Source: a virus
Virus record (IMG/VR): IMGVR_UViG_3300020027_000018
Location: 1 to 41,913 of that record
Length of the DNA: 41,913 nucleotides
Direction: 5' to 3' (one strand)
Position numbers and translations under genes: made by a program. Positions within the stretch are counted from its first letter, which is position 1; each line of letters starts with the position of its first letter. The notes under the pieces are model-generated. The model had not been told where the DNA came from. It did not search any database and was given only the letters and a program-made list of their open reading frames with translations. Positions 6,497 through 31,835 of this stretch are shown here, one piece after another.

Positions 6497-7899
6497 ATGA
6501 AAACAGCAAGAAATTACACAGCTCCTTATATAAGCTCTTCTTTAAAAGACTACATGCAAGGTGCAAGTTTAACTTTAGCAACGTGCTGGAGATTAGTAGC
6601 TAAAAATGGAAATACAGTAGCTGCTACATCACACACTCGAGATTTAGACTTGACAGCTTATCCTTCTATCACCTTTTTAAGCACTCAAGGCGTAGTACCG
6701 TCTGCAGTTGATTCTGAAGCAGGTTTAACTTCAGCTGGTTTAGAAGTGGACGGGCTTTTTAAAGTCACAGTAATAGACGAGGAAAGTATAGCATACGGAG
6801 ATTGGGATGCCGCTTATTTTGAGGTGTTTATTATAAACTATGAAGCTCCTGAAATGGGAGAACTTGTTATGTTTGCAGGTTACATAGGAAATGTAAAAAC
6901 ATATGGACAACGATTTAGAGCAGAAGGAAGACCTCTAACCAGTAAAGCTACACAAGAAATAGGTGCACTGTTCACTCCTAAGTGTACAGTACGAAATTTA
7001 GGAGATAATAAATGTAAGGTAAATTTAGCTTCTCCTGCAGGCGGAGATGGAGCACCTATAACTGTGACTGGAACTGTAACAAGTGGAGGTTCAAACATAG
7101 AATTTGAAGACTCAAGCAGAACAGAAACTACCTCCTATTTTGATTACGGAGTTATACAGTTTACATCAGGTATATTAAATGGTAAACTATCTGAAGTTAG
7201 AAGTTATTTAGGGACAACAGTTACAACTGTAGTCCGCATACCGTCAAACAATACATGGAAAGTGTCAGCTTCAAACCCTGCGGGATGGGAGACAGCAGGT
7301 TATAATGACAGTGGGTGGTCTAACGCTGTTATGCAAGGAGCTATGGGAGCTCTTCCTTGGGGAACCACTCCAAATTTCCCAACGGCTTAACCTCACAATG
7401 GATTTGGAATCAAGATACTCGTAATAGGTCTAATATAGCTGGAAACATGTATTTTAGAAAAACTTTTACTCCTAACGTAGCCTCTGGTGTGCTAACAATA
7501 GCAGTAGATAACAGTTATACAGTATATTTAAACGGAGTCTCAATAGGTACAGGTAGTAATTATCAAGTTTCACAAACTTATGCTTTATCTCTCAATATAG
7601 GAGTACCGAATGTTATAGCAATTGCAGCGGTAAATCAAACTGTGCCAATAACAGTTATTAATCCAGCAGGTGTTTTAGTAGATATAAAACTTGCTCCGTA
7701 TGCCCCAGTAGGAGGAGGTGGTACATTTAGACTTCAAACTCCTATGTCCCGTATAATACCAGCAGGTACAACTTATACTGCAATACGAGGTTGTGATAGA
7801 ACTTGGCAGACCTGTAAAGGGACTTATAATAATTTGATTAACTTTAGAGGGTTTCCATTTGTTCCCGGAATCGAGAAGGCCTATAAAATCAACCGATAA
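6497..7899 (+). CDS. DUF2163 (phage BR0599-type) tail protein, split by a -1 frameshift
   Basis: Residues 1-240 match the DUF2163 N-terminal region, with the Cys pair in FTPKCTVRNLGDNKCKVNL. The frame closes at 7390, but the -1 frame carries straight on to 7899. It completes an inserted beta-sandwich domain (NTWKVSASNPAGWETAGYND before the shift, SQWIWNQDTRN after it) and then the family's C-terminal signature GCDRTWQTCKGTYNNL with INFRGFPFVPG. The halves are therefore one gene: 294 residues in frame 0 plus 173 in frame -1 would give about 467. The shift falls inside the inserted galactose-binding-like domain, at or near an A_AAT_TTC heptamer (7372-7378). It could be programmed frameshifting, a real mutation or a base-calling error in the CCC run. 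This family sits at the distal end of siphovirus tails beside the NlpC/P60 peptidase. Confidence 0.85.
7372..7378 (+). promoter_or_regulatory. Candidate -1 slippery heptamer A_AAT_TTC
   Basis: Read in the frame of the DUF2163 gene the codons are CCA AAT TTC CCA ACG GCT TAA. The heptamer has the X_XXY_YYZ form required for tandem -1 slippage and lies four codons before the stop. After slipping, the next codon is CCC and the protein continues for 173 residues in the correct family. I see no strong downstream stem-loop, and the nearest upstream AAGGAG is about 35 bases away. Confidence 0.4.
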
Positions 7900-18125: not shown

Positions 18126-18467
18126 ATGATTAATGTAGAAGTTAGATGTATTAGAAAAACACAAGATTTTGTAAATGATGTAATAGTATCTGAAATTACT
18201 TTTCAGCCAATTATTAATCAGACAATTACACCACAATTTGCCGTAGGAGCGGCGATAGGTACTCCTAATACAATAGGTAAACCAACACTAGAAAAAGACG
18301 ACTTGACAGAACCAGTACAAATAAAATATAATTTAAATGGTGCTCTCACTTTCAATGTATACGATTCAGAAGAAGCCTCACGATATGAGATTGGACAGAT
18401 TTATCATTTAAGTTTAGATGTTTTATCTATCACAGAAGCAAGAGCAAAACCTATTAAGGAGAAATAA
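18126..18467 (+). CDS. Hypothetical protein (113 aa)
   Basis: Family not recognised. No signal peptide or membrane segment. The predicted beta-rich sequence includes an Ala/Gly stretch (FAVGAAIGTPNTIGKPTLE). It follows the preceding gene by four bases and precedes the endolysin gene by three, so it belongs to the same transcription unit. A near-consensus promoter-like sequence lies inside it (18303-18332). Confidence 0.7.
   Translation: MINVEVRCIRKTQDFVNDVIVSEITFQPIINQTITPQFAVGAAIGTPNTIGKPTLEKDDLTEPVQIKYNLNGALTFNVYDSEEASRYEIGQIYHLSLDVLSITEARAKPIKEK
18303..18332 (+). promoter_or_regulatory. Candidate internal sigma70 promoter before the lysis genes
   Basis: TTGACA at 18303-18308, an 18-base spacer and TATAAT at 18327-18332. 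Both hexamers are perfect. It lies inside the gene before the endolysin and would start RNA near 18339. In an AT-rich coding region a chance match is possible. Confidence 0.45.
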
Positions 18468-18470
18468 TAT

Positions 18471-19835
18471 ATGGCATTTACAAAAAAGCAAAAAGCGGCT
18501 GTTAAAGCCATAGTTTCTTGTCACGAAACTGGAAAACCTGTAGGAAATTATTCTGCTCTTGTAGTATTAAGTGACGATGCTGGTATCACTTTCGGTTCTC
18601 ACCAATCTACTCATAAATCTGGCTCTCTGTATAAGATAGTTAAGATGTACTGTGACATATCTAATTCTAATGTATCAAAAGAGTTAGAAAAATATTTATC
18701 CGGCTTAAAAACCCCTGCTCAACGTCATAAATACGCAAAAGACGCTAATTTAAAGAAACTTTTAAAAGAGTCAGGTAATGACCCTTCTATGAGATTTGCA
18801 CAAGACAAAGTATTCGAAGTTAATTATTTTGAGCCAGCTGTGCATGCGGTCGAAGGCTCTGGATGGGTTAGCCCACTGTCTTTAGCGGTAGTCTATGATT
18901 CTATGATACAAGGTGGTTGGACAACGGTACGTGATAGAGTATCCGCAGCTAGTGAAAAAGAATGGATTAAAAAATATGTTGCTGCTCGTAGACGGTGGCT
19001 ATCAGGCAGTTCACGGCAAGTTGTTAGAAATTCAGTTTATCGAATGAAAACGTTCGAAGATTTAATAGCTAAAAATAATTGGGATTTAAATACTCCTATG
19101 ATTGTTCATGGAGTTACTATAACTGATTCTCATTTGTCTGTTTGGATGACCGGTGAAAACTCTAGTAAACCTGTTACTGAAATAGGTGAAGTGGAAAGTG
19201 TTGATATATCCGCACCTATACAAAATTTCTTTTTAGGAAATACAGAAGGAATTGCGGATGAGAATACAGCAGGAGGAAGTTGGGAGGAGGGTGATAGCAT
19301 AGAAGTTATAGAAGATACTGATGAAGCTGGTCTTACTGAGTTTGTTCCTCTTGTTCCTGAAGAAACTGTACCAGATAATAAAGTCACAGGAGACCCTCCA
19401 AAAGCAGGTGAACCAGTGCCGGACAAGGCAGCAGAAGAAGGAGAGGCTATTGTAGGAGGAAGACCTCAAGACCCTCCTGTTATAATAGAGCCAAAGCAGC
19501 CTGAAGTTACTAGCGGATGGAGTACTTGGAAGACTACAATAGCTGGATTTTTTGGTACGATAGGAGTTTCTGCAGCGTCAGCTGGTACGTGGTTATGGGG
19601 AGCTATACAGGACCCGGGTTCGGCAAGATTTTTCCTAGTCTTTGCAATGGCTGCCGTTATTCTAGCCGGTATAATTGGAATAGTTTACTTGATAATTAGA
19701 GCTGTAGATAAAAGTAGACGTGAAAACCATGCTTATCAGATTACAGTTAAAGAACTTGAATTAAAAAGTATGCCAGACAGATATAATGTGAAAGTGGATA
19801 GAAGAGCTGAATCGAGAGAGGAATCAGATAAATAA
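18471..19835 (+). CDS. Endolysin: GH46 chitosanase-like hydrolase with C-terminal membrane segments
   Basis: Residues 1-210 resemble the chitosanase-like (GH46-type) peptidoglycan hydrolases of phages: an acid in SCHETGKP (Glu19), then DDAGITFGSHQST (Asp35/36) and a long helical domain ending near AARRRWLSG. A linker rich in Pro, Glu and Ala follows (about 235-345). Residues about 350-410 hold a Gly/Ala amphipathic stretch and one clear membrane helix (FFLVFAMAAVILAGIIGIVY). A cytoplasmic-type basic tail follows. At 454 residues it is long for an endolysin. The C-terminal membrane region could tether it to the inner membrane or act as a pinholin-like element. AAGGAG sits upstream of the ATG. 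The small membrane proteins downstream complete a lysis module. Confidence 0.8.
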   Translation: MAFTKKQKAAVKAIVSCHETGKPVGNYSALVVLSDDAGITFGSHQSTHKSGSLYKIVKMYCDISNSNVSKELEKYLSGLKTPAQRHKYAKDANLKKLLKESGNDPSMRFAQDKVFEVNYFEPAVHAVEGSGWVSPLSLAVVYDSMIQGGWTTVRDRVSAASEKEWIKKYVAARRRWLSGSSRQVVRNSVYRMKTFEDLIAKNNWDLNTPMIVHGVTITDSHLSVWMTGENSSKPVTEIGEVESVDISAPIQNFFLGNTEGIADENTAGGSWEEGDSIEVIEDTDEAGLTEFVPLVPEETVPDNKVTGDPPKAGEPVPDKAAEEGEAIVGGRPQDPPVIIEPKQPEVTSGWSTWKTTIAGFFGTIGVSAASAGTWLWGAIQDPGSARFFLVFAMAAVILAGIIGIVYLIIRAVDKSRRENHAYQITVKELELKSMPDRYNVKVDRRAESREESDK

Positions 19836-19841
19836 TAAATT

Positions 19842-20204
19842 ATGTATACTGTAGCACATGAGTTTACTTTTGAAATAAATCAAGACGGGAGACTTCTAAA
19901 GTTTGTAGGACAGCTTATATTTAAAAATAGTAAATTGAATGATATAGGAAGTTTAAATAATGACGATGATATGGATAAGTTCGGTGTAATCCTAAATCAA
20001 CAACTTCATCTTCCTAATTACTGGACATTAGAGATACTGGCACAAACTCTGTTTGAAAAAATAAGACCTATATACAGTACTTTATTTGCATTAAATATTT
20101 ATTTATCGAGTAGCCCATCGAGAGTGGCTGAGTACAGTTTAGAGTCTAATTTAAATTATAACGGTTTTGAAGATATATTAGAATTAGAAAATATAATAGG
20201 ATAA
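19842..20204 (+). CDS. Hypothetical protein (120 aa), weakly QueD-like
   Basis: Family uncertain. The order of features (HEFTFEIN at the start, a beta-hairpin, LPNYWTLEILAQTLFEKI, then a final strand with RVAEYSLE) recalls 6-carboxytetrahydropterin synthase (QueD/PTPS) fold proteins, where PTxENLA and a late Glu follow the same order. The zinc-binding HGH and the catalytic Cys cannot be found, so any relationship would be to an inactive member. It lies seven bases after the endolysin gene and three before the KTSC-like gene. No membrane segment is visible. Confidence 0.65.
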   Translation: MYTVAHEFTFEINQDGRLLKFVGQLIFKNSKLNDIGSLNNDDDMDKFGVILNQQLHLPNYWTLEILAQTLFEKIRPIYSTLFALNIYLSSSPSRVAEYSLESNLNYNGFEDILELENIIG

Positions 20205-20206
20205 TT

Positions 20207-20485
20207 ATGGGTAAGTTAAGATTGGAAGGAATTTCGGATTCAATAGAAGAATTACAGTATAATACTAGTGGAGAATTATATGTAAAATTTTATGAGAACG
20301 ATTTAATATACAAATATAAAAATATTGAAATAGATAAATTTGCTGATATTCAAAGAAGCTACGATATTCTTACTAAAAGACGAATCAAAGGAACGTTGGA
20401 TGATAACGTAAAACAGAAGTGGTCAATAGGAAAATTCTTTAACAAAGAAATCAAAAATAAGAAGGAGTATACATGGAAGGATTAA
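20207..20485 (+). CDS. KTSC-domain-like protein (92 aa)
   Basis: The pattern IEELQYN...ELYVKFYENDLIYKY...IGKFFNKEIKNKKEY fits the KTSC domain: a small beta-rich fold ending in GxxFNxxIxxxY, seen in phage proteins and fused to lysyl-tRNA synthetases. Between strand and end it has an extra segment of about 15 residues. Its molecular role is not established. The end overlaps the next start by 13 bases, and the AAGGAG for that next gene lies inside it. Confidence 0.7.
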   Translation: MGKLRLEGISDSIEELQYNTSGELYVKFYENDLIYKYKNIEIDKFADIQRSYDILTKRRIKGTLDDNVKQKWSIGKFFNKEIKNKKEYTWKD

Positions 20486-20949
20486 AACGATTTTTTTCAT
20501 CTTTGCCTTTACCTGTTTGGATTGTATCTGCACTAGTCATTATAATAATTTTCTGGTGGGTAAGTGACGATATAGGCTCGTGGTGGGAGGGCAGACAGCG
20601 TACCAAATTTGACTCTGCGATAGCGGAACAACAAATAAAAATAGATAGTTTAGCTAAAGAACGAGATGACTTACTTCAAAGAGCGGTTTTAGCAGAGACA
20701 CGAGAGCAGGGTAAAATATTAGAGGCGGATTTATTACGACAAGAAGCTGCAAAACGCGGAGTAAATATACAAGCTGCACAAGATAAAATAGATGGAGCCA
20801 TTAAAGAATATTCTGAAAATCTTGAAATTATTGAGAAAGTTAAAACAGGTGAAATTTCTAAATTAGAGTTATGTCAATTTCAGTGTCAAGAAAGTGCAGC
20901 ACAAGGCTATCCATGCAGAGTTAATTATTGTGCCAAGTTCAAGGAGTAA
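20473..20949 (+). CDS. Inner-membrane coiled-coil protein, i-spanin-like
   Basis: One N-terminal membrane helix (about residues 14-32, WIVSALVIIIIFWW) is followed by a charged coiled coil to about residue 125. A Cys-rich end carries four Cys in about 22 residues (CQFQCQ...PCRVNYC). This is the topology of the inner-membrane spanin subunit (Rz-like), which links inner and outer membranes during lysis. Its location just after the endolysin supports that. The Cys-rich tail is not typical of Rz and may form disulphides in the periplasm. A strong AAGGAG precedes the ATG. Confidence 0.65.
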   Translation: MEGLKRFFSSLPLPVWIVSALVIIIIFWWVSDDIGSWWEGRQRTKFDSAIAEQQIKIDSLAKERDDLLQRAVLAETREQGKILEADLLRQEAAKRGVNIQAAQDKIDGAIKEYSENLEIIEKVKTGEISKLELCQFQCQESAAQGYPCRVNYCAKFKE

Positions 20950-20951
20950 GT

Positions 20952-21380
20952 ATGAAAAAATATTTATTGAGTATATTTGCGGTCTTAATGTTTTGTACAA
21001 TTAATGTATCAGCCCAAACAGATGACGAGTTCGATTTAATACAAAGAGCTCAAATGATAGCTGAAATTAAAAAATTACGTACTGAAAATACAGCAAAAGA
21101 TACAATTATAGCAGAACAAAAATCTACTATTGAGGTCTATAAAAAATTAGATGGAGTTCAAGAGTCTCGTATTCTAGATTTAAAAGAAGCTTTAAAGTTT
21201 AGAACTGAAGCCGGAAATATAGATGTTAAAATTGAAACTATGTATAAAGACCAAATATTTGACTATAAAGCTGAAGTTAATAGATTACGTACTGAAAACG
21301 ATAAACTAAGAAAATCTCGGGATAGACGTAGTTTGATTATGGGGATAGTAGGAGCTGCTGCAGGAGCATTAATATTTTAA
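20952..21380 (+). CDS. Secreted coiled-coil protein, possible spanin partner
   Basis: I place the start at the ATG at 20952, with AAGGAG at 20941-20946, not at in-frame codons upstream. The first 20 residues form a signal peptide ending VSA before QTDDEF. No lipobox Cys follows, so it is not an obvious o-spanin lipoprotein. The mature part is a Lys/Glu-rich coiled coil containing RLRTEND repeats and ends with a hydrophobic helix, SLIMGIVGAAAGALIF. A periplasmic coiled coil anchored at its C-terminus next to an i-spanin-like gene suggests a unimolecular or paired spanin, but this is inference. Its stop overlaps the next start (TAATG). Confidence 0.65.
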   Translation: MKKYLLSIFAVLMFCTINVSAQTDDEFDLIQRAQMIAEIKKLRTENTAKDTIIAEQKSTIEVYKKLDGVQESRILDLKEALKFRTEAGNIDVKIETMYKDQIFDYKAEVNRLRTENDKLRKSRDRRSLIMGIVGAAAGALIF

Positions 21381-22081
21381 TGAGTAATACTAGTTGGATA
21401 GAATGGTTTTGGTACTGGATGAGTCAAACAGGGGATGACTGGCATACAATTGCATGGGCAGTTGACAATAATCCTCTTGTTATAGCTCTCATTATAGGTT
21501 CTGGAGCTGTACTTTCTATTTCTTTTTTTGTAATAGCTGTTTTAACTGCCTATGGTGCAAAAACTCAGGGGTTTTTTTCAACAGGTCATAAAAGAGTGGT
21601 AATTTGGTTCATACTTTTTCTAACACTTTGCGGAGTATTGTTTGCTGCTAAAATAGGTTTATTTTTTATCCCTTTGTTTTGGGTCTATGGAGCGATTAAA
21701 CTTATAACTGCATCTAGCATGCTAGGTACAGTTATAATGTATATTCGATACTTCAAAGATATAATGAATGTACCTACTCGATTAGAATGGGATAAAGTTC
21801 TTAGAGATAAGGCAGAAGCTGAGAGAAAGATTACTTTACTTACTGACCATTTAGATATATGGACTGATGAGGTTAATAACCATATAGAGATTCTTAAACA
21901 ACAGCATGACGAGCTGGCCACTACTCTTTCGGATAAAGGAATTCCTGTATCGACAATAGAAGATTCAGAGATTCATAGAACGTCTGATACAAACAGACAA
22001 CAAGCCCTTAATTCACTAGAAAAAATAAGAAGAGAGCTTAAAGTTTTAGCTGAAAATATAACTGACTTAGAGAAAATGTAA
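21380..22081 (+). CDS. Ethylene-receptor-like membrane domain protein without kinase
   Basis: About four membrane helices lie between residues 30 and 125, followed by a coiled coil (about 135-190). The block from FILFLTLCG through WVYGAIKLITASSMLG to MNVP resembles the three-helix membrane domain of ethylene-receptor-like and cyanobacterial histidine kinases (CGxTH ... W..G..K..TA..S ... LP). The first copper ligand position is kept (Cys84), but the His four residues later is Phe88, so copper or ethylene binding is not expected. No HisKA or ATPase domain follows. In position it sits where a holin would be expected, so a holin-like pore is the main alternative. Confidence 0.6.
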   Translation: MSNTSWIEWFWYWMSQTGDDWHTIAWAVDNNPLVIALIIGSGAVLSISFFVIAVLTAYGAKTQGFFSTGHKRVVIWFILFLTLCGVLFAAKIGLFFIPLFWVYGAIKLITASSMLGTVIMYIRYFKDIMNVPTRLEWDKVLRDKAEAERKITLLTDHLDIWTDEVNNHIEILKQQHDELATTLSDKGIPVSTIEDSEIHRTSDTNRQQALNSLEKIRRELKVLAENITDLEKM

Positions 22082-22557
22082 TGATGTATATACTTACCAT
22101 ATTTTTGCTTCAAGCGACTAATACCGCACAGTGGCCTTCTGGACTACCTTCTGGGTGGACAATAATAGGGTGGGTAGTAGCTGTACTTGTAGCTCTCATG
22201 TACTTCTTTTCTGGTTATCTACAAAATATATCAAGTGGACGAAAAGATTTACTAGAAGTAAATGAAAAAAAATTAGTTGAAATAATCAAAGAAAAAGATG
22301 AGTCTCAATTTCTAAATAAAGAACTGCAAAAACAGTTAGAAAAACTAGAAAAAGATAAAAATGATGTAGAGAAAGATAAAACTATGCTTATGAGAGAGCA
22401 TCATCAACTTCTTGAAATATCAGTTGCAGATTTACACACACTTAAGAACAACGCTAAACTAATAGAGGCTTTAGAGGAAGAAGTTAATCGTTATAGGGAA
22501 GATAAAGGCCTATCTCCTAAAGCAAAATCAAAATTTAATATAAGAGCGGACGAATAA
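22081..22557 (+). CDS. Membrane-anchored coiled-coil protein (158 aa)
   Basis: A hydrophobic N-terminal segment and one clear membrane helix (about residues 27-45, TIIGWVVAVLVALMYFFSGY) are followed by a Lys/Glu-rich coiled coil covering most of the remainder. The helix is preceded by a short outside-facing loop, so the coiled coil is probably cytoplasmic. The first ATG overlaps the upstream stop (TAATG) and a second ATG follows directly. Function unknown. Its coiled coil could pair with that of the neighbouring membrane protein or of the 23104 gene product. Confidence 0.7.
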   Translation: MMYILTIFLLQATNTAQWPSGLPSGWTIIGWVVAVLVALMYFFSGYLQNISSGRKDLLEVNEKKLVEIIKEKDESQFLNKELQKQLEKLEKDKNDVEKDKTMLMREHHQLLEISVADLHTLKNNAKLIEALEEEVNRYREDKGLSPKAKSKFNIRADE

Positions 22558-22559
22558 TA

Positions 22560-23120
22560 ATGTTCCATAAAGATGAGATTGAAGGTACGCCTTGCTCTGA
22601 ATATAGACCAAAGGTGTTATTAGCACAATCCAATAAAGATGATTTAGAAAAAATAGCACACTGTGCAGAAGCATGTGATAAGTATAATTTTGTTTTAGCT
22701 AGTACAGGAACAGATATAATAAACAAAATAAATTCGGAATATTTTGATGCAGTCGTATTAGGATTAAAATTCCCAGACATAACTGGCTCAACAATAGCTT
22801 ATTTAATACATGAATTTGACCCTCTTATTTCTATAATCTTCCTCAGCTCTTATAATAGTAATATTCTTATATCCGTAGTCGAAGCTATTGGATGTAAATT
22901 TTTAGATAAAGCAGAAGCGATGGAGAATTTACCAGAGTTATGTGAATTTATATATCAGACCTCTATGGAAACTTCTTGTGAGAATGATAAACTTATCAGC
23001 AAAGAATTTGTAAATGACAGACGAAACACATATAAGCAATATGAAAAGCTTAGTCTGCCAAAAAGTATAGCGGAGGTTGTAAGTTTAAGGAGAAATGTAA
23101 GTTATGCCGGAAGTAAATAA
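22560..23120 (+). CDS. Degenerate receiver (REC)-like protein
   Basis: Residues 16-125 follow the receiver-domain order: KVLLAQSNKDD (strand 1), a helix, FVLASTGTDII, then FDAVVLGLKFPDITG (strand 3). IIFLSS (strand 4) and GCKFLDKAEAM (strand 5) follow. The switch Ser96 and Lys117 are present. The phosphoacceptor Asp that should sit at the end of strand 3 is Gly68, and the acidic pair after strand 1 is Gln-Ser. It is therefore a pseudo-receiver that should not take up phosphate. A helical tail of about 60 residues follows, with no DNA-binding domain seen. It lies between two membrane coiled-coil genes in the lysis module and overlaps the next gene by 17 bases. Confidence 0.72.
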   Translation: MFHKDEIEGTPCSEYRPKVLLAQSNKDDLEKIAHCAEACDKYNFVLASTGTDIINKINSEYFDAVVLGLKFPDITGSTIAYLIHEFDPLISIIFLSSYNSNILISVVEAIGCKFLDKAEAMENLPELCEFIYQTSMETSCENDKLISKEFVNDRRNTYKQYEKLSLPKSIAEVVSLRRNVSYAGSK

Positions 23121-23361
23121 ATCAAATTCAAATAAATTAGTAGTTGCGGTTTTACTGTTTTTAGTAGTAGGGTTTTTAATGAGTACATTTACAAGCTACA
23201 CTCAAAACTCAGACTTACAAACAGGTCTTGAATCTCGAAAAACAGTAGGAGATGAAATTCTTAGGTTAACTCAAGAACATTCGGAAGAATTAAAAGTTTT
23301 AAAAGACGAAATGCAAAAATTAAAAAATAATTGCAGTAATACTGGAAATAACTCTAGATAA
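23104..23361 (+). CDS. Small membrane protein with coiled coil (85 aa)
   Basis: A single membrane helix at about residues 12-29 (VVAVLLFLVVGFLMSTF) is followed by a short coiled coil rich in Glu, Lys and Leu. It overlaps the receiver-like gene, so the two are probably translationally coupled. Length and layout would fit a small holin/antiholin or an adaptor for the neighbouring coiled-coil proteins. Family not recognised. Confidence 0.65.
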   Translation: MPEVNKSNSNKLVVAVLLFLVVGFLMSTFTSYTQNSDLQTGLESRKTVGDEILRLTQEHSEELKVLKDEMQKLKNNCSNTGNNSR

Positions 23362-23401
23362 GTGCTATTATACAGGTATCTTTTGCAAAAGGAGAATAAT
23401 T

Positions 23402-23683
23402 ATGGCAAGAAATAAAGCAGTTAAAGCTACACCTCAATACAAGTCAACTAAACTATCTTCCACTGGAGGAAGTGCGTTAGTATCTGACCATAGTGTTGCT
23501 AGAGACGGAAGAAAGCAGATTGAAGGTATTTCAACTGCACGTCATCATACAGTTAAACCATCGTCCAGTAGTGGTACAATCGGTAAAGGGCAGCCTCTTA
23601 AGACCGCAAGTGGTGTAAGAGAGCATCAAACAAGCGATAAACCGCTTGGTAAGGTGTATCGTAGAAGCTCACCAAAAAATTAA
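23402..23683 (+). CDS. Basic Ser/Thr/Lys-rich protein (93 aa)
   Basis: Highly basic, low in hydrophobic residues and probably disordered; no family recognised. AAGGAG lies directly before the ATG. A possible promoter (TGGAAA, 17 bases, TATTAT ending near 23371) lies in the 40-base gap upstream, and a strong hairpin follows the stop. It may therefore be made as its own short transcript. Composition suggests nucleic-acid binding, which is inference only. Confidence 0.65.
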   Translation: MARNKAVKATPQYKSTKLSSTGGSALVSDHSVARDGRKQIEGISTARHHTVKPSSSSGTIGKGQPLKTASGVREHQTSDKPLGKVYRRSSPKN

Positions 23684-25119: not shown

Positions 25120-26757
25120 ATGTTAGAAATTTTTATAAGTGATGTGCATCTACCATTTCAAGATAAAGCTGGGTGGGGGTTAACCTTAGAGGTAATAAAA
25201 CAACTTAAACCTGATTTAGTTTTTCTTGGAGGCGACATACTCGATTGTGTCACCCCAGACACTAAAATTTTAACCTCAACTGGAAAATGGATTCCAGCGG
25301 GAGAGGTCGTTATCGGGCAAAACCTTATAGGTTTTGATGAATTCGGAGTTGGTGCAACCTCTATGGGGCGTAATCAGCCTAGAAAACTTAGAAACTCTAC
25401 AATCACAAATTTGGGAAGAGCTTTGCAGCCGGTTTACAAACTCTATATGGATGATGGAACCGAGTTAAAAAGCTCTGCTGGGCATAAATGGTTAGGGTGG
25501 GGCGGTAATAAGAGCCGTGGAGTTCTTAAATGGTTCACTACACAAGAAATTGCGGAACGTATAAACTCCAATAAACATCAACCTGTTTTACTGTGCAAAC
25601 CTTGTGATGTATGGGAGCAGTCCCATGATTATGAGTCAGGCTATATTGCTGCCGCATTTGACGGAGAAGGGCATATTACTTTCAATAAACAGCAAAATAA
25701 TTTTGGACACATAGCATTTTCTCAAAAATCTAATGCATTTATGGATAATGTTAGTAATTATCTACTAAATAAAGGATTTTCTATCTACACTACCCAAAAT
25801 GAACACAGAACAGTTCAGCAATTAAATATAAAGGGCGGATTTTGGGATTATCTAAAGTTTCTAGGCATGTTTAATATCCCTCGATTCACGGAAAAATGGG
25901 TTTCTGATGCCCCAATTGACGGATACCGAGGCTTAGATAAACAAAGGGCTAGTGTTATGAAAGTAGAGTATTTAGGAGTTGAAGAGATTGTAATGATTGA
26001 AACATCCTCTAAAACTTATATAGCTGAAGGTTTTGCTTCTCATAATTGCTATGCCGTCTCAAAATATGACCGAGACCCCTCACGTAAACTAACTCTTCAG
26101 CAAGACTTGAATTACGCTCATGAGGAGCTTGCTAAAATAAGAAAAGCCGTGCCAAAAGCGGAAATAGTGCTGTTGGAAGGTAATCATGAGCAACGTCTTA
26201 CCAAGTATTTACATTCTAAGGCAGAAGAACTTTCTTGTTTGGAAGCTTTAGAGTTGAAAAGTTTGCTTAAGTTAGACTCATTAAAAATTAAATGGATACC
26301 TAACGGAACCCGAACTAAAATAGGAAAATTATGGCATCTACACGGAAATGAGATAGCTGGAGGTGGTACAAATATAGCTAAATCTAAGTTTGATAGGCTA
26401 GGTACGAATGTAATATTTGGACATCATCACAAACTTCAGAGTTATACAAAACGAAATTACGAAGGAGAGGTGTGTGGTGCATGGGCAAACCCCTGTATGA
26501 GTGATTTACAGCCAGATTACGCTCATTTTACTGATTGGGTTTTAGGGTTCTCTATAATTGAATACGGTAAAAATGGAATATTCAACGTAGAGCAAATACC
26601 TGTAATCAAACAAACTATTAATTCTAGTAAAGCTTCTTGTTTTGTTAGAGGCACAGAATATGAATTTGAGTCCGGAGAAGATACTAATAAAAACGCACCT
26701 TACTCTGAAAAACATTCGGTAATTTATAGAGGTTTAATAGAGTCGGAGGACAAATAA
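25120..26757 (+). CDS. Calcineurin-like metallophosphoesterase interrupted by an intein
   Basis: The metallophosphoesterase motifs are all present: SDVHLP (residues 7-12), GGDILD (37-42), then after the intein LLEGNHEQR and IFGHHHK. Residues 43-309 are an intein, so the spliced enzyme would have 278 residues, normal for the family. It should hydrolyse phosphodiester or phosphomonoester bonds using two metals; the substrate is unknown. The ATG at 25120 has no clear ribosome site. The original promoter and AAGGA lie 600 bases upstream before the 12-codon remnant, so expression of this copy is in question. Its stop overlaps the next ATG (TAATG). Confidence 0.9.
   Translation: MLEIFISDVHLPFQDKAGWGLTLEVIKQLKPDLVFLGGDILDCVTPDTKILTSTGKWIPAGEVVIGQNLIGFDEFGVGATSMGRNQPRKLRNSTITNLGRALQPVYKLYMDDGTELKSSAGHKWLGWGGNKSRGVLKWFTTQEIAERINSNKHQPVLLCKPCDVWEQSHDYESGYIAAAFDGEGHITFNKQQNNFGHIAFSQKSNAFMDNVSNYLLNKGFSIYTTQNEHRTVQQLNIKGGFWDYLKFLGMFNIPRFTEKWVSDAPIDGYRGLDKQRASVMKVEYLGVEEIVMIETSSKTYIAEGFASHNCYAVSKYDRDPSRKLTLQQDLNYAHEELAKIRKAVPKAEIVLLEGNHEQRLTKYLHSKAEELSCLEALELKSLLKLDSLKIKWIPNGTRTKIGKLWHLHGNEIAGGGTNIAKSKFDRLGTNVIFGHHHKLQSYTKRNYEGEVCGAWANPCMSDLQPDYAHFTDWVLGFSIIEYGKNGIFNVEQIPVIKQTINSSKASCFVRGTEYEFESGEDTNKNAPYSEKHSVIYRGLIESEDK
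25246..26046 (+). other. Intein (267 aa) with LAGLIDADG-type remnant
   Basis: Begins at Cys43 (CVTPDTKIL), has a TxxH-type block (KSSAGHKWLG), ends YIAEGFASHN at residue 309, and is followed by Cys310 as the +1 nucleophile. All splicing residues are therefore in place. The middle holds SGYIAAAFDGEGHI, a LAGLIDADG-like motif; a second motif is not clear, so the homing endonuclease may be single-motif or degraded. It inserts directly after the metal-binding GGDILD, a conserved active-site position as is usual for inteins. Confidence 0.92.
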
Positions 26758-30121: not shown

Positions 30122-31282
30122 TTATTTACTAGAAAGAGGTACTCTGGAATCCTCTCCTACAACAAAATACCCAGTAGGATTCCAATAAAACCCTTTACCT
30201 AGATTTTTCCGTTGTATACGAAATGACATTTCGATTTCTGGTAATTCTATTTCGTGATTTTTTGCAGCGTTTAAATCCGCATCAATCATAACTTTACAAC
30301 TATTACAGTTATAAATTTTACCAGTTCGATTTGCCTTTCGCACTAAACCACAATTGCTACACCTTTGACTTCGATAAGCACTACTTTGCTCAGTTACAAG
30401 AACCTCTTGTTCCTCAGCTTTTCGTTTTATATTATCTCGTATCAACGTGTTACAGAAGTGGCTTAAATATCTCGATTTGCTTTTCTTAAATCCGATATTG
30501 AAAAGTTTTTCGAGTTTAATTTCTTTGATATTTGAAAAATTGATTTTGTTTATAAACCAATTTATATGGTTTTTTCTATGCTCTTGTTTGCGTCTAAACG
30601 CTTTTGAACCTTTTCTCTTTCTACTTAATTGTTTTGTGATTGAGTCTAAAGAGTGTAAATGATTGTCAACTAAATTATTTGTACTTTCATTAGAAAAAGT
30701 TACAATAGTTTTTATTCCTGTGTCTGCTCCAACAATCTCTCCTTCAGATTTTAATGAGTTAGGTACATCGAACCGTAGTGAAATATATGTCTTAGATAGG
30801 GATACGGAAGTCATTAAAGTCCCACTTGACCATTTATCTGAAATTTTAGTACCTTTTAACGGAATTTTAATAATAGGAAACCCTGTTGATTTTAATTTTA
30901 TAAAGTAACTAAAGGTTTTTGTATCTTGTTGAATGTCAATACATTTAGAACTTAATTCTGGATTAAAACTAACTACAGGTTTTGAAACTTTTTGACCTAA
31001 GTATAATTTTTTACAGACAGCTCGAATTGTACCACTAACTTGAGTAACTAAACTGCTCAAAGCTCTAGCACTAAGTTTTGTATCAAGTTTAAAATGACTG
31101 TAATCTAAAAATTTAGGTAAGATATACTGTTCTTTTTGAATAGAAAAGTCTTGATAGCCGTTTTCCCAAATATCATTTAAGATTATCTGTCCAACGCGGG
31201 AGTATTCACTCAAAAATTCTTGATAAATTTTTAGTTTTCTCTTGTTAGCAAATTTGATACTGTGTTTGGAGTTTCTAATCAT
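30122..31282 (-). CDS. tnpB: TnpB RNA-guided nuclease
   Basis: 386 residues with the three RuvC acidic positions: Asp in GADTGIKT, Glu in IKLEKLF and Asp in MIDADLNAAKN. A CxxC...CxxC zinc finger lies between the last two (RCSNCG and YNCNSC). Length is normal and no breaks are seen, so it may be active. TnpB is the guide-RNA-directed DNA nuclease ancestral to Cas12 that helps IS605/IS607 elements keep their place. Its first codons overlap the tnpA end by eight bases. The guide RNA would be expected over its 3' end and the following 30-150 bases. Confidence 0.92.
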   Translation of the reverse strand: MIRNSKHSIKFANKRKLKIYQEFLSEYSRVGQIILNDIWENGYQDFSIQKEQYILPKFLDYSHFKLDTKLSARALSSLVTQVSGTIRAVCKKLYLGQKVSKPVVSFNPELSSKCIDIQQDTKTFSYFIKLKSTGFPIIKIPLKGTKISDKWSSGTLMTSVSLSKTYISLRFDVPNSLKSEGEIVGADTGIKTIVTFSNESTNNLVDNHLHSLDSITKQLSRKRKGSKAFRRKQEHRKNHINWFINKINFSNIKEIKLEKLFNIGFKKSKSRYLSHFCNTLIRDNIKRKAEEQEVLVTEQSSAYRSQRCSNCGLVRKANRTGKIYNCNSCKVMIDADLNAAKNHEIELPEIEMSFRIQRKNLGKGFYWNPTGYFVVGEDSRVPLSSK

Positions 31283-31835
31283 TTATTTCTTGTTTTATTT
31301 TAGTTGCTTTATGTTGTCCACGTCTTAGACCGTATAACTTACAGCAAAATGAAGTTACAACAGAGACTAAATCTTTAACTAAATCGTCTTTATCATTTTC
31401 GTCTCTGTTCATGACAATTAATTCGCAACCAAGTTTAGGTAACAGTTTGTCAAAGTAATTAAATCCAAATCGTGTTAATCGGTCTTTATGTTCTACTAAA
31501 ATTCTCGTTGGATTTTCATCAATAAGTTTAAATAATTTTTTTCGGCTATCGTTCATTCCAGATGCTATTTCTTTAGTGACCGACATTATTTCGTATCCAC
31601 GAGCATTTGCAAAAATAGTACAACGTTCTGCCTGACGTTCAAGGTCGTTCTTTTTATCAGGCGAAGAAACTTGGCAATAAATCCAAACTTTGTTTGAAGA
31701 AGAAACTTGATTTTCAGGGTTTATGATGATTGTGCCGCTAGGCATACGAACGCCATCAATATCACCATTACAGAACCATCTGTAGGCTGTAATGTAGGAA
31801 ACACCTTTTGATTTTGCGTATTCACTTAACTTCAT
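31275..31835 (-). CDS. tnpA: IS607-type serine recombinase TnpA
   Basis: The N-terminal MerR-like helix-turn-helix (KLSEYAKSKGVSYITAYRW) is followed by a serine resolvase domain: VWIYCQVSS, RQAERC, EIASGMNDSR and EHKDRLTRFGF. The catalytic Ser is present, but the nearly invariant Arg two residues before it (YxRVS) is Gln here, so activity may be reduced or lost. 186 residues is close to the usual length. A promoter placed directly before the ATG predicts a leaderless message. Confidence 0.9.
   Translation of the reverse strand: MKLSEYAKSKGVSYITAYRWFCNGDIDGVRMPSGTIIINPENQVSSSNKVWIYCQVSSPDKKNDLERQAERCTIFANARGYEIMSVTKEIASGMNDSRKKLFKLIDENPTRILVEHKDRLTRFGFNYFDKLLPKLGCELIVMNRDENDKDDLVKDLVSVVTSFCCKLYGLRRGQHKATKIKQEIND

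Follow-up and report, generated by a model that had tools for sequence, protein, structure and literature searches.

Degenerate receiver and ethylene-receptor-like genes in a phage lysis block, and the recurrence of receiver genes in Alteromonas phage lysis cassettes

Background

Explanations of when phage lysis occurs usually invoke only holin and antiholin proteins. Small membrane proteins that regulate lysis timing are known from phage N4 (gp62/gp63), phage T4 (RI/T) and the XhlA-XhlB pair, in N4 acting from the cytosolic face, but a receiver fold features in none of these systems. In N4 gp63, the name "Receiver domain" denotes a regulatory region defined by mutations (PMC12642591); as it is not a REC domain, it was rejected as a precedent for a receiver fold. 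Here, the 41,913 bases of IMG/VR record IMGVR_UViG_3300020027_000018 (the window, probably a fragment of a virus genome) are analysed, with a focus on a lysis block that encodes both a receiver with altered phosphorylation-site residues (22560-23120) and a membrane protein resembling the sensor domain of ethylene receptors (21380-22081). Single-domain receivers were also found beside or within the lysis cassettes of at least six Alteromonas phage lineages, and it is tentatively proposed that such a cassette holds a receiver-based regulatory module, in which a membrane coiled-coil protein and a receiver would control lysis.

Several phage receivers of this type are already in the literature under other names. 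Those of Alteromonas phages V22 and A5 were published as a CheY-like class II auxiliary metabolic gene with neighbours of unknown function (PMC7289586, PMC10579305), and that of phage R8W as PhoB (PMC8228385), despite its 153 amino acids (aa) including no DNA-binding part. An earlier, sequence-only reading of the window knew of no described phage system of this build, a statement to be tempered by the published CheY-like and PhoB-like genes of Alteromonas phages, none of which was presented as a lysis component. No paper linking these receivers to lysis, or describing receivers in lysis cassettes, was found in a search that did not extend to most subscription journals. In the V22 gp29-gp32 and A5 gp10-gp13 blocks, as in the window, a single-domain receiver directly follows a small membrane coiled-coil gene, and the block lies 3' of tail genes, with spanin and holin-like genes alongside in V22 and A5; unlike in the window, the receivers retain the phosphorylation site and no ETR1_N protein is present.

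The membrane protein, for its part, shares with the ETR1 and SynEtr1 sensors (PF25487) a three-helix membrane domain, a Cys and the conserved Lys of helix 3, but it has lost the copper His, the Asp of the first transmembrane segment (TM1) and the PHG motif, and possesses no GAF domain, kinase or fused receiver. Bacterial loci of Cognaticolwellia (L088) and Cellvibrionaceae (L082) offer another comparison, in that they too encode a kinase-less membrane domain with a short coiled coil and have receiver genes nearby; their proteins keep the Cys, His and Asp and are followed by a kinase gene, whereas the window phage lacks the His, the Asp and the kinase.

Results

The receiver gene of the window (22560-23120, + strand) encodes a 186-aa pseudo-receiver in which a REC fold is followed by C-terminal helices. 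It matches the Response_reg profile PF00072 with 32.2 bits against a cut-off of 30.2, and a REC fold, on which the sequence-only reading had staked itself beforehand, is predicted by AlphaFold: the model shows the (beta-alpha)5 order, with predicted local distance difference test (pLDDT) values mostly of 86-93 over residues 21-140, and overall has a mean pLDDT of 80.4 and a predicted template-modelling score (pTM) of 0.75, with extra helices at residues 124-145, 148-162 and 170-183. Aligned with bacterial receivers (alignment A4), the protein has Gln23-Ser24 in place of the Asp-Asp acidic pair, Gly68 in place of the phosphoacceptor and Ser96 in place of the switch Thr, with Lys117 retained. 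Judged by these residues, the window receiver would no longer be open to phosphorylation.

Two genes upstream, 21380-22081 (+ strand, 233 aa) encodes an ETR1_N three-helix membrane domain without a kinase, joined to a coiled coil. The PF25487 match spans residues 35-130 and profile positions 3-96 of 97 (E 2.2e-8, 34.7 bits against a cut-off of 27); tblastn with the protein matched 14 bacterial ETR1_N loci (best E 8e-8), and blastp matched a free-standing Cognaticolwellia ETR1_N protein (33% over 81 aa, E 1e-4). No kinase domain, fused or adjacent, was matched in Pfam within open reading frames (ORFs) of 18471-23683. In a 20-row alignment of the window phage with bacteria (A7), Cys84, Gly85, Gly104, Lys107 and Ala111 are invariant, and nearly every bacterial row also has His88, Asp42 and the N-terminal PHG-C motif, all of which the window phage has lost. 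The copper ligand Cys84 is thus present, with Phe88 replacing the copper His and Gly42 the TM1 Asp, and because known ETR1 ligands are lost, binding of copper and ethylene by the window protein seems unlikely. The model (mean pLDDT 82.8, pTM 0.52) places membrane helices at residues 32-62, 71-94 and 100-129 and coils at 134-185 and 198-232. Since the TM1-TM2 loop and the stretch after TM3 carry positive charges and the N-terminus carries none, the protein is predicted to cross the membrane three times, N-out and C-in, with its coiled coil cytosolic as in ethylene receptors. Structure searches with it returned nothing at E <= 0.001, neither holins nor other proteins, and by sequence it groups with receptor membrane domains, so that the second outcome which the sequence-only reading had named as refuting it, a grouping with known holins, did not arise. 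The domain was absent from all of the 60 other IMG/VR records searched (0/60), and queries with ETR1 and with a bacterial-style probe brought up no canonical ETR1_N from either phages or IMG/VR.

The ETR1_N and receiver ORFs are separated by a single gene, 22081-22557 (+ strand), encoding a small membrane and coiled-coil protein (TM 27-45) whose TM segment is flanked by no K/R on the N side and two on the C side, so that its coil is predicted to be cytosolic. Its tail resembles a bacterial coiled-coil motif only weakly (E 0.015 for L082 and no match for L088), and the resemblance was dropped. The block is tightly packed: the junctions 20952-21380/21380-22081/22081-22557 are stop/start overlaps of the form TAATG, two bases separate 22081-22557 from the receiver ORF, and the next gene, 23104-23361, begins within the receiver gene with a 17-base overlap. 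GC and GC3 of the ETR1_N/receiver pair are like those of neighbouring phage genes. The features that had been picked out from the letters alone, namely a kinase-less ethylene-receptor-like domain with Cys84 and Phe88, a receiver two genes on with Gly68 and Gln-Ser, and tight interleaving with two membrane coiled-coil genes, are all borne out, and the broader description of remodelled two-component parts inside a lysis module holds.

A fold search with the window receiver against viral proteins matched the receiver of Alteromonas phage V22, and further lineages were reached by tblastn from the V22 and R9Y1 receivers. In every one of the Alteromonas phage lineages found, the receiver lies directly 3' of a small membrane coiled-coil gene and near holin, spanin or endolysin genes. 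In V22 it stands between the membrane coiled-coil gene and a gene for an Rz-like spanin (phrog_4297), with a permuted papain-like amidase close by, and in the schitovirus A5 the order is coiled-coil, receiver, Rz-like spanin, holin-like and endolysin. Siphoviruses R9Y1-R9Y3 and four IMG/VR contigs have coiled-coil, receiver and lysozyme (GH108 in R9Y1), and the autographiviruses R8W and H4/4 a class II holin (phrog_1356), a membrane protein, the receiver, another membrane protein and the terminase genes. PB15 and XX1924 pair an XhlA-type protein (phrog_937 in PB15) with the receiver, which in PB15 is followed by a carboxypeptidase and a holin (phrog_3427). In V19 and R22Y a coiled-coil gene precedes the receiver, and in V19 a convergent holin-like gene adjoins. 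The window shares this layout, with 22081-22557 followed by 22560-23120 and a GH46 endolysin upstream.

The Alteromonas phage receivers are 125-153 aa long, and none has a DNA-binding output domain. Most retain the Asp and Lys of the phosphorylation site, so that loss of phosphorylation is a derived variant; the phosphorylation-free build seen in the sequence-only reading therefore applies to the window receiver and not to most of its relatives. Several smaller observations concern the same neighbourhoods. V22 gp31 (L139:26167-26577) and A5 gp12 (L141:6031-6507) are the proteins that match the Rz-like spanins of phrog_4297, V22 gp32 is homologous to A5 gp13, both being small membrane proteins that look holin-like by eye, and a small protein, DUF5675-like by eye and with the motif LERPWLNN...IP.G.Y, is encoded near the receiver pair in V22 (L139:27828-28235), V19 (L146:4527-4922) and XX1924 (L177:2438-2836).

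A phrog_731 search of 52 virus and phage records matched 14 places in 13 or so records. Besides the window, these were ten records that had been picked because they hold receivers, MW462191 with its two longer receiver proteins, and one place that matched no more than the C-terminal part of the profile. Phages in general thus do not carry free receivers as baggage, in a sample that is small and non-random. As a name for a lysis-receiver family phrog_731 was rejected, since the full-length MW462191 members have about 235-247 aa with a C-terminal part past the receiver; it marks the receiver domain only. Many receiver matches came from records labelled as "Listeria", "Staphylococcus" or "human fecal" phages; these look like contaminating bacterial DNA and were left out, and the record of "Pseudomonas phage Y1" turned out to be bacterial. 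Some INPHARED records (for example OQ572403 (L148), OR84xxxx and MT83xxxx) likewise seem to hold bacterial chromosome, which inflates counts of phage response regulators.

Nine Alteromonas phage receivers were tested against 29 bacterial receivers and form one clade (ultrafast bootstrap, UFBoot, 96; SH-like approximate likelihood ratio test, SH-aLRT, 90). Their coiled-coil partners are homologous between R9Y1 (ORF13) and R8W (gp47; blastp E 1.5e-9) and between V22 (gp29) and A5 (gp10; E 1.9e-10). The positive-inside rule puts the partner coils on the cytosolic side in each of the six lineages compared, whereas the Rz spanins of V22 and A5 show the reverse charge pattern, with periplasmic coils; with the partner coils on the cytosolic side, receiver and coil would occupy one compartment. 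The receivers of V19 (L146:3498-3950) and R22Y (L176:2501-2960) are 54% identical, are without phosphoacceptor and Lys, and have a shortened beta3-alpha3 loop. Because their nonsynonymous divergence (dN about 0.35) is far below their synonymous divergence (dS about 2.8, near saturation), this receiver is under constraint without phosphorylation, which supports the view that the window pseudo-receiver can be functional.

The pair has counterparts in bacteria. In Cellvibrionaceae (L082:4001-8303) and Cognaticolwellia (L088:4152-9463), an ETR1_N-coiled-coil gene without a fused kinase is followed by a histidine-kinase gene, with receiver genes nearby. Such free-standing genes are a minority: when 398 genomes from the phylum and 296 from the order were searched, nearly all ETR1_N matches lay in long frames. 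It is reasonable to suppose that the phage pair comes from a captured and remodelled bacterial sensor operon. Exact-peptide scans of the window proteins against IMG/VR and GTDB genomes found no relative, nor did tblastn of the ETR1_N protein, the receiver and the endolysin against INPHARED, and the viral loci reached by tail and ParB queries have neither the lysis block of the window nor ETR1_N.

The remaining genes of the block lie on the same strand (+). The endolysin gene (18471-19835) encodes a GH46-type glycosidase domain (residues 14-210, PF01374, E 2.7e-17), a long acidic, proline-containing linker and a C-terminal TM segment (387-405 by hydropathy), and the protein may be membrane-anchored or an endolysin-holin fusion. 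The product of 20473-20949 has an N-terminal TM segment (13-31), a coiled coil and a Cys-rich tail, and is spanin-like by topology only. Next to it, 20952-21380 encodes a signal peptide, a coiled coil and a short C-terminal hydrophobic stretch, possibly an envelope protein or spanin partner, with only weak coiled-coil matches in Pfam and PHROG. The protein of 23104-23361 is a small TM and coiled-coil protein of spanin-like topology (TM 12-30, N-in/C-out by the positive-inside rule). No PHROG lysis family matched the block better than E 0.005, and topology would suit spanins for the 20473, 20952 and 23104 products. The earlier placement of the pair downstream of endolysin and spanin-like genes is therefore secure for the endolysin, the spanin label resting on topology.

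A perfect sigma-70-type sequence (TTGACA-18-TATAAT, 12/12 positions in a consensus scan) at 18303-18332 (+ strand), about 140 bases 5' of the endolysin gene, is a candidate promoter for the block; promoter-like sites as a whole are no more numerous in the region than in shuffled sequence. Between 18471 and 23361 the + strand showed no terminator-like site. Both scans fit a single transcription unit over 18471-23361, consensus matches not being proof of one.

On the + strand, tail genes of gene transfer agent (GTA) type (DUF2460, phiJL001 Gp84, BR0599, Phage-tail_3, Rcc01698_C) are followed by the lysis block and then by a ParB-like gene. The tail genes weakly match those of Alteromonas, Rhodobacter and other phages, with divergence in the GTA-tail alignment too great for use in scanning. 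From these matches and the ETR1_N relatives, a marine gammaproteobacterium is our guess at the host. Elsewhere in the window, the Gp84/BR0599 tail gene, which other phages encode as a single frame of about 300 aa, occupies two frames of 297 and 180 aa that overlap (6497-7899), through an insertion, a frameshift or a true split. At 25120-26757, a metallophosphatase gene (PF00149) is split by an intein-like insert that carries a LAGLIDADG domain (PF14528) and, by eye, splice-like Cys and His-Asn-Cys ends. Two overlapping genes at 30122-31835 (- strand) look by eye like an IS607-type TnpA serine recombinase and a TnpB lying inside the phage record.

Discussion

The mechanism proposed for a receiver-based lysis module runs as follows. 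The ETR1_N-coiled-coil protein and the 22081-22557 protein would hold a coiled coil at the cytosolic face of the inner membrane, and the receiver from the adjoining coupled gene would dock on it and change how the membrane proteins assemble or act, which would fix the moment of the holin step and of endolysin action. In most relatives the signal could be the phosphorylation state of the host, through its kinases or small phosphodonors. In the window and, separately, in V19 and R22Y, an unphosphorylatable receiver would serve as a constitutive binding partner, and any signal would arrive through the membrane domain. With its copper ligands lost, the ETR1_N domain should not sense ethylene; it may be a dimeric membrane platform, or may sense another small molecule or the state of the membrane. 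From this arrangement we infer that the receiver contacts the coil and influences lysis timing, and the recurrence of receivers in the lysis cassettes of other phages makes a lysis-timing role more plausible. The wider generalization, which we regard as possible but doubtful, is that marine phages have repeatedly built lysis timers in which a receiver on a membrane-anchored cytosolic coil couples host signalling to the holin, some of them independent of phosphorylation.

A number of points weigh against a lysis-timing module. Lysis cassettes often adjoin tail-fibre genes, where cargo genes collect. No confident holin was identified in the window, and the lysis neighbours of V19 were judged by eye. 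Every clear relative has its host in one genus, and recurrence across Alteromonas phages may therefore reflect gene exchange instead of many origins. The window partners have no blastp match better than E 0.01 to the Alteromonas phage partners. In the tree, the window receiver sits on a long branch (5.34) outside the phage clade, weakly beside two bacterial receivers; a tree placing it inside the clade is not rejected (approximately unbiased, AU, test, p 0.58), and the protein either shares an origin with the phage clade and has diverged or was separately recruited.

The main rival, which we consider unlikely, takes the receivers for effectors of host signalling, that is, CheY-like or PhoB-like decoys or auxiliary genes that would bind host kinases, phosphotransfer proteins or the flagellar motor and so alter motility, the phosphate response or stress signalling, their position among lysis genes being incidental. 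Publication of the relatives as CheY-like or PhoB auxiliary metabolic genes and retention of the phosphorylation site in most of them agree with such a role, and even an unphosphorylatable receiver could fill the docking surfaces of kinases. The jamming of host signalling, raised as a possibility in the sequence-only reading, was neither favoured nor contradicted by the results. Receivers of 125-153 aa with no DNA-binding output domain are, however, unlikely to exert PhoB-like gene control, and incidental placement has to contend with a membrane coiled-coil partner directly upstream in every lineage and with a lysis-gene vicinity that recurs across unrelated genome architectures.

Two further explanations concern the window pair itself. 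It is improbable that the pair is the decaying remnant of a captured bacterial ETR1_N/kinase/receiver operon, its kinase lost and its remaining genes drifting without function: catalytic and copper residues are indeed gone, and free-standing ETR1_N-coiled-coil genes do lie by histidine-kinase and receiver genes in Cellvibrionaceae and Cognaticolwellia, but both frames are intact and start/stop coupled, the folds are preserved, the base composition (GC and GC3) fits that of neighbouring phage genes, and the degenerate V19/R22Y receiver is under constraint. Quite improbable, too, is that the ETR1_N protein is a holin or antiholin and the receiver an unrelated passenger. Three TM helices in an N-out C-in arrangement, a position after the endolysin and the want of any other confident holin in the window are what a holin would lead one to expect, yet the protein matches no holin PHROG and has no confident structural match to holins, and the pairing of receiver with membrane protein recurs in other phages.

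What is new here is that receivers recur in lysis cassettes and that the window is no isolated oddity, which suggests a so far unrecognised form of lysis control. Genes published as auxiliary and of PhoB-like or CheY-like type may belong to the lysis machinery, in which case their annotations would be revised; for V22 gp31 and A5 gp12 the published unknown function is already replaced by an Rz-like spanin match. The conserved degenerate receivers provide a natural contrast between phosphorylation-dependent and phosphorylation-independent versions, and isolated Alteromonas phages make the link between receivers and lysis testable. If the lysis-module reading is true, the physiological state of the infected cell could directly set the moment of lysis.

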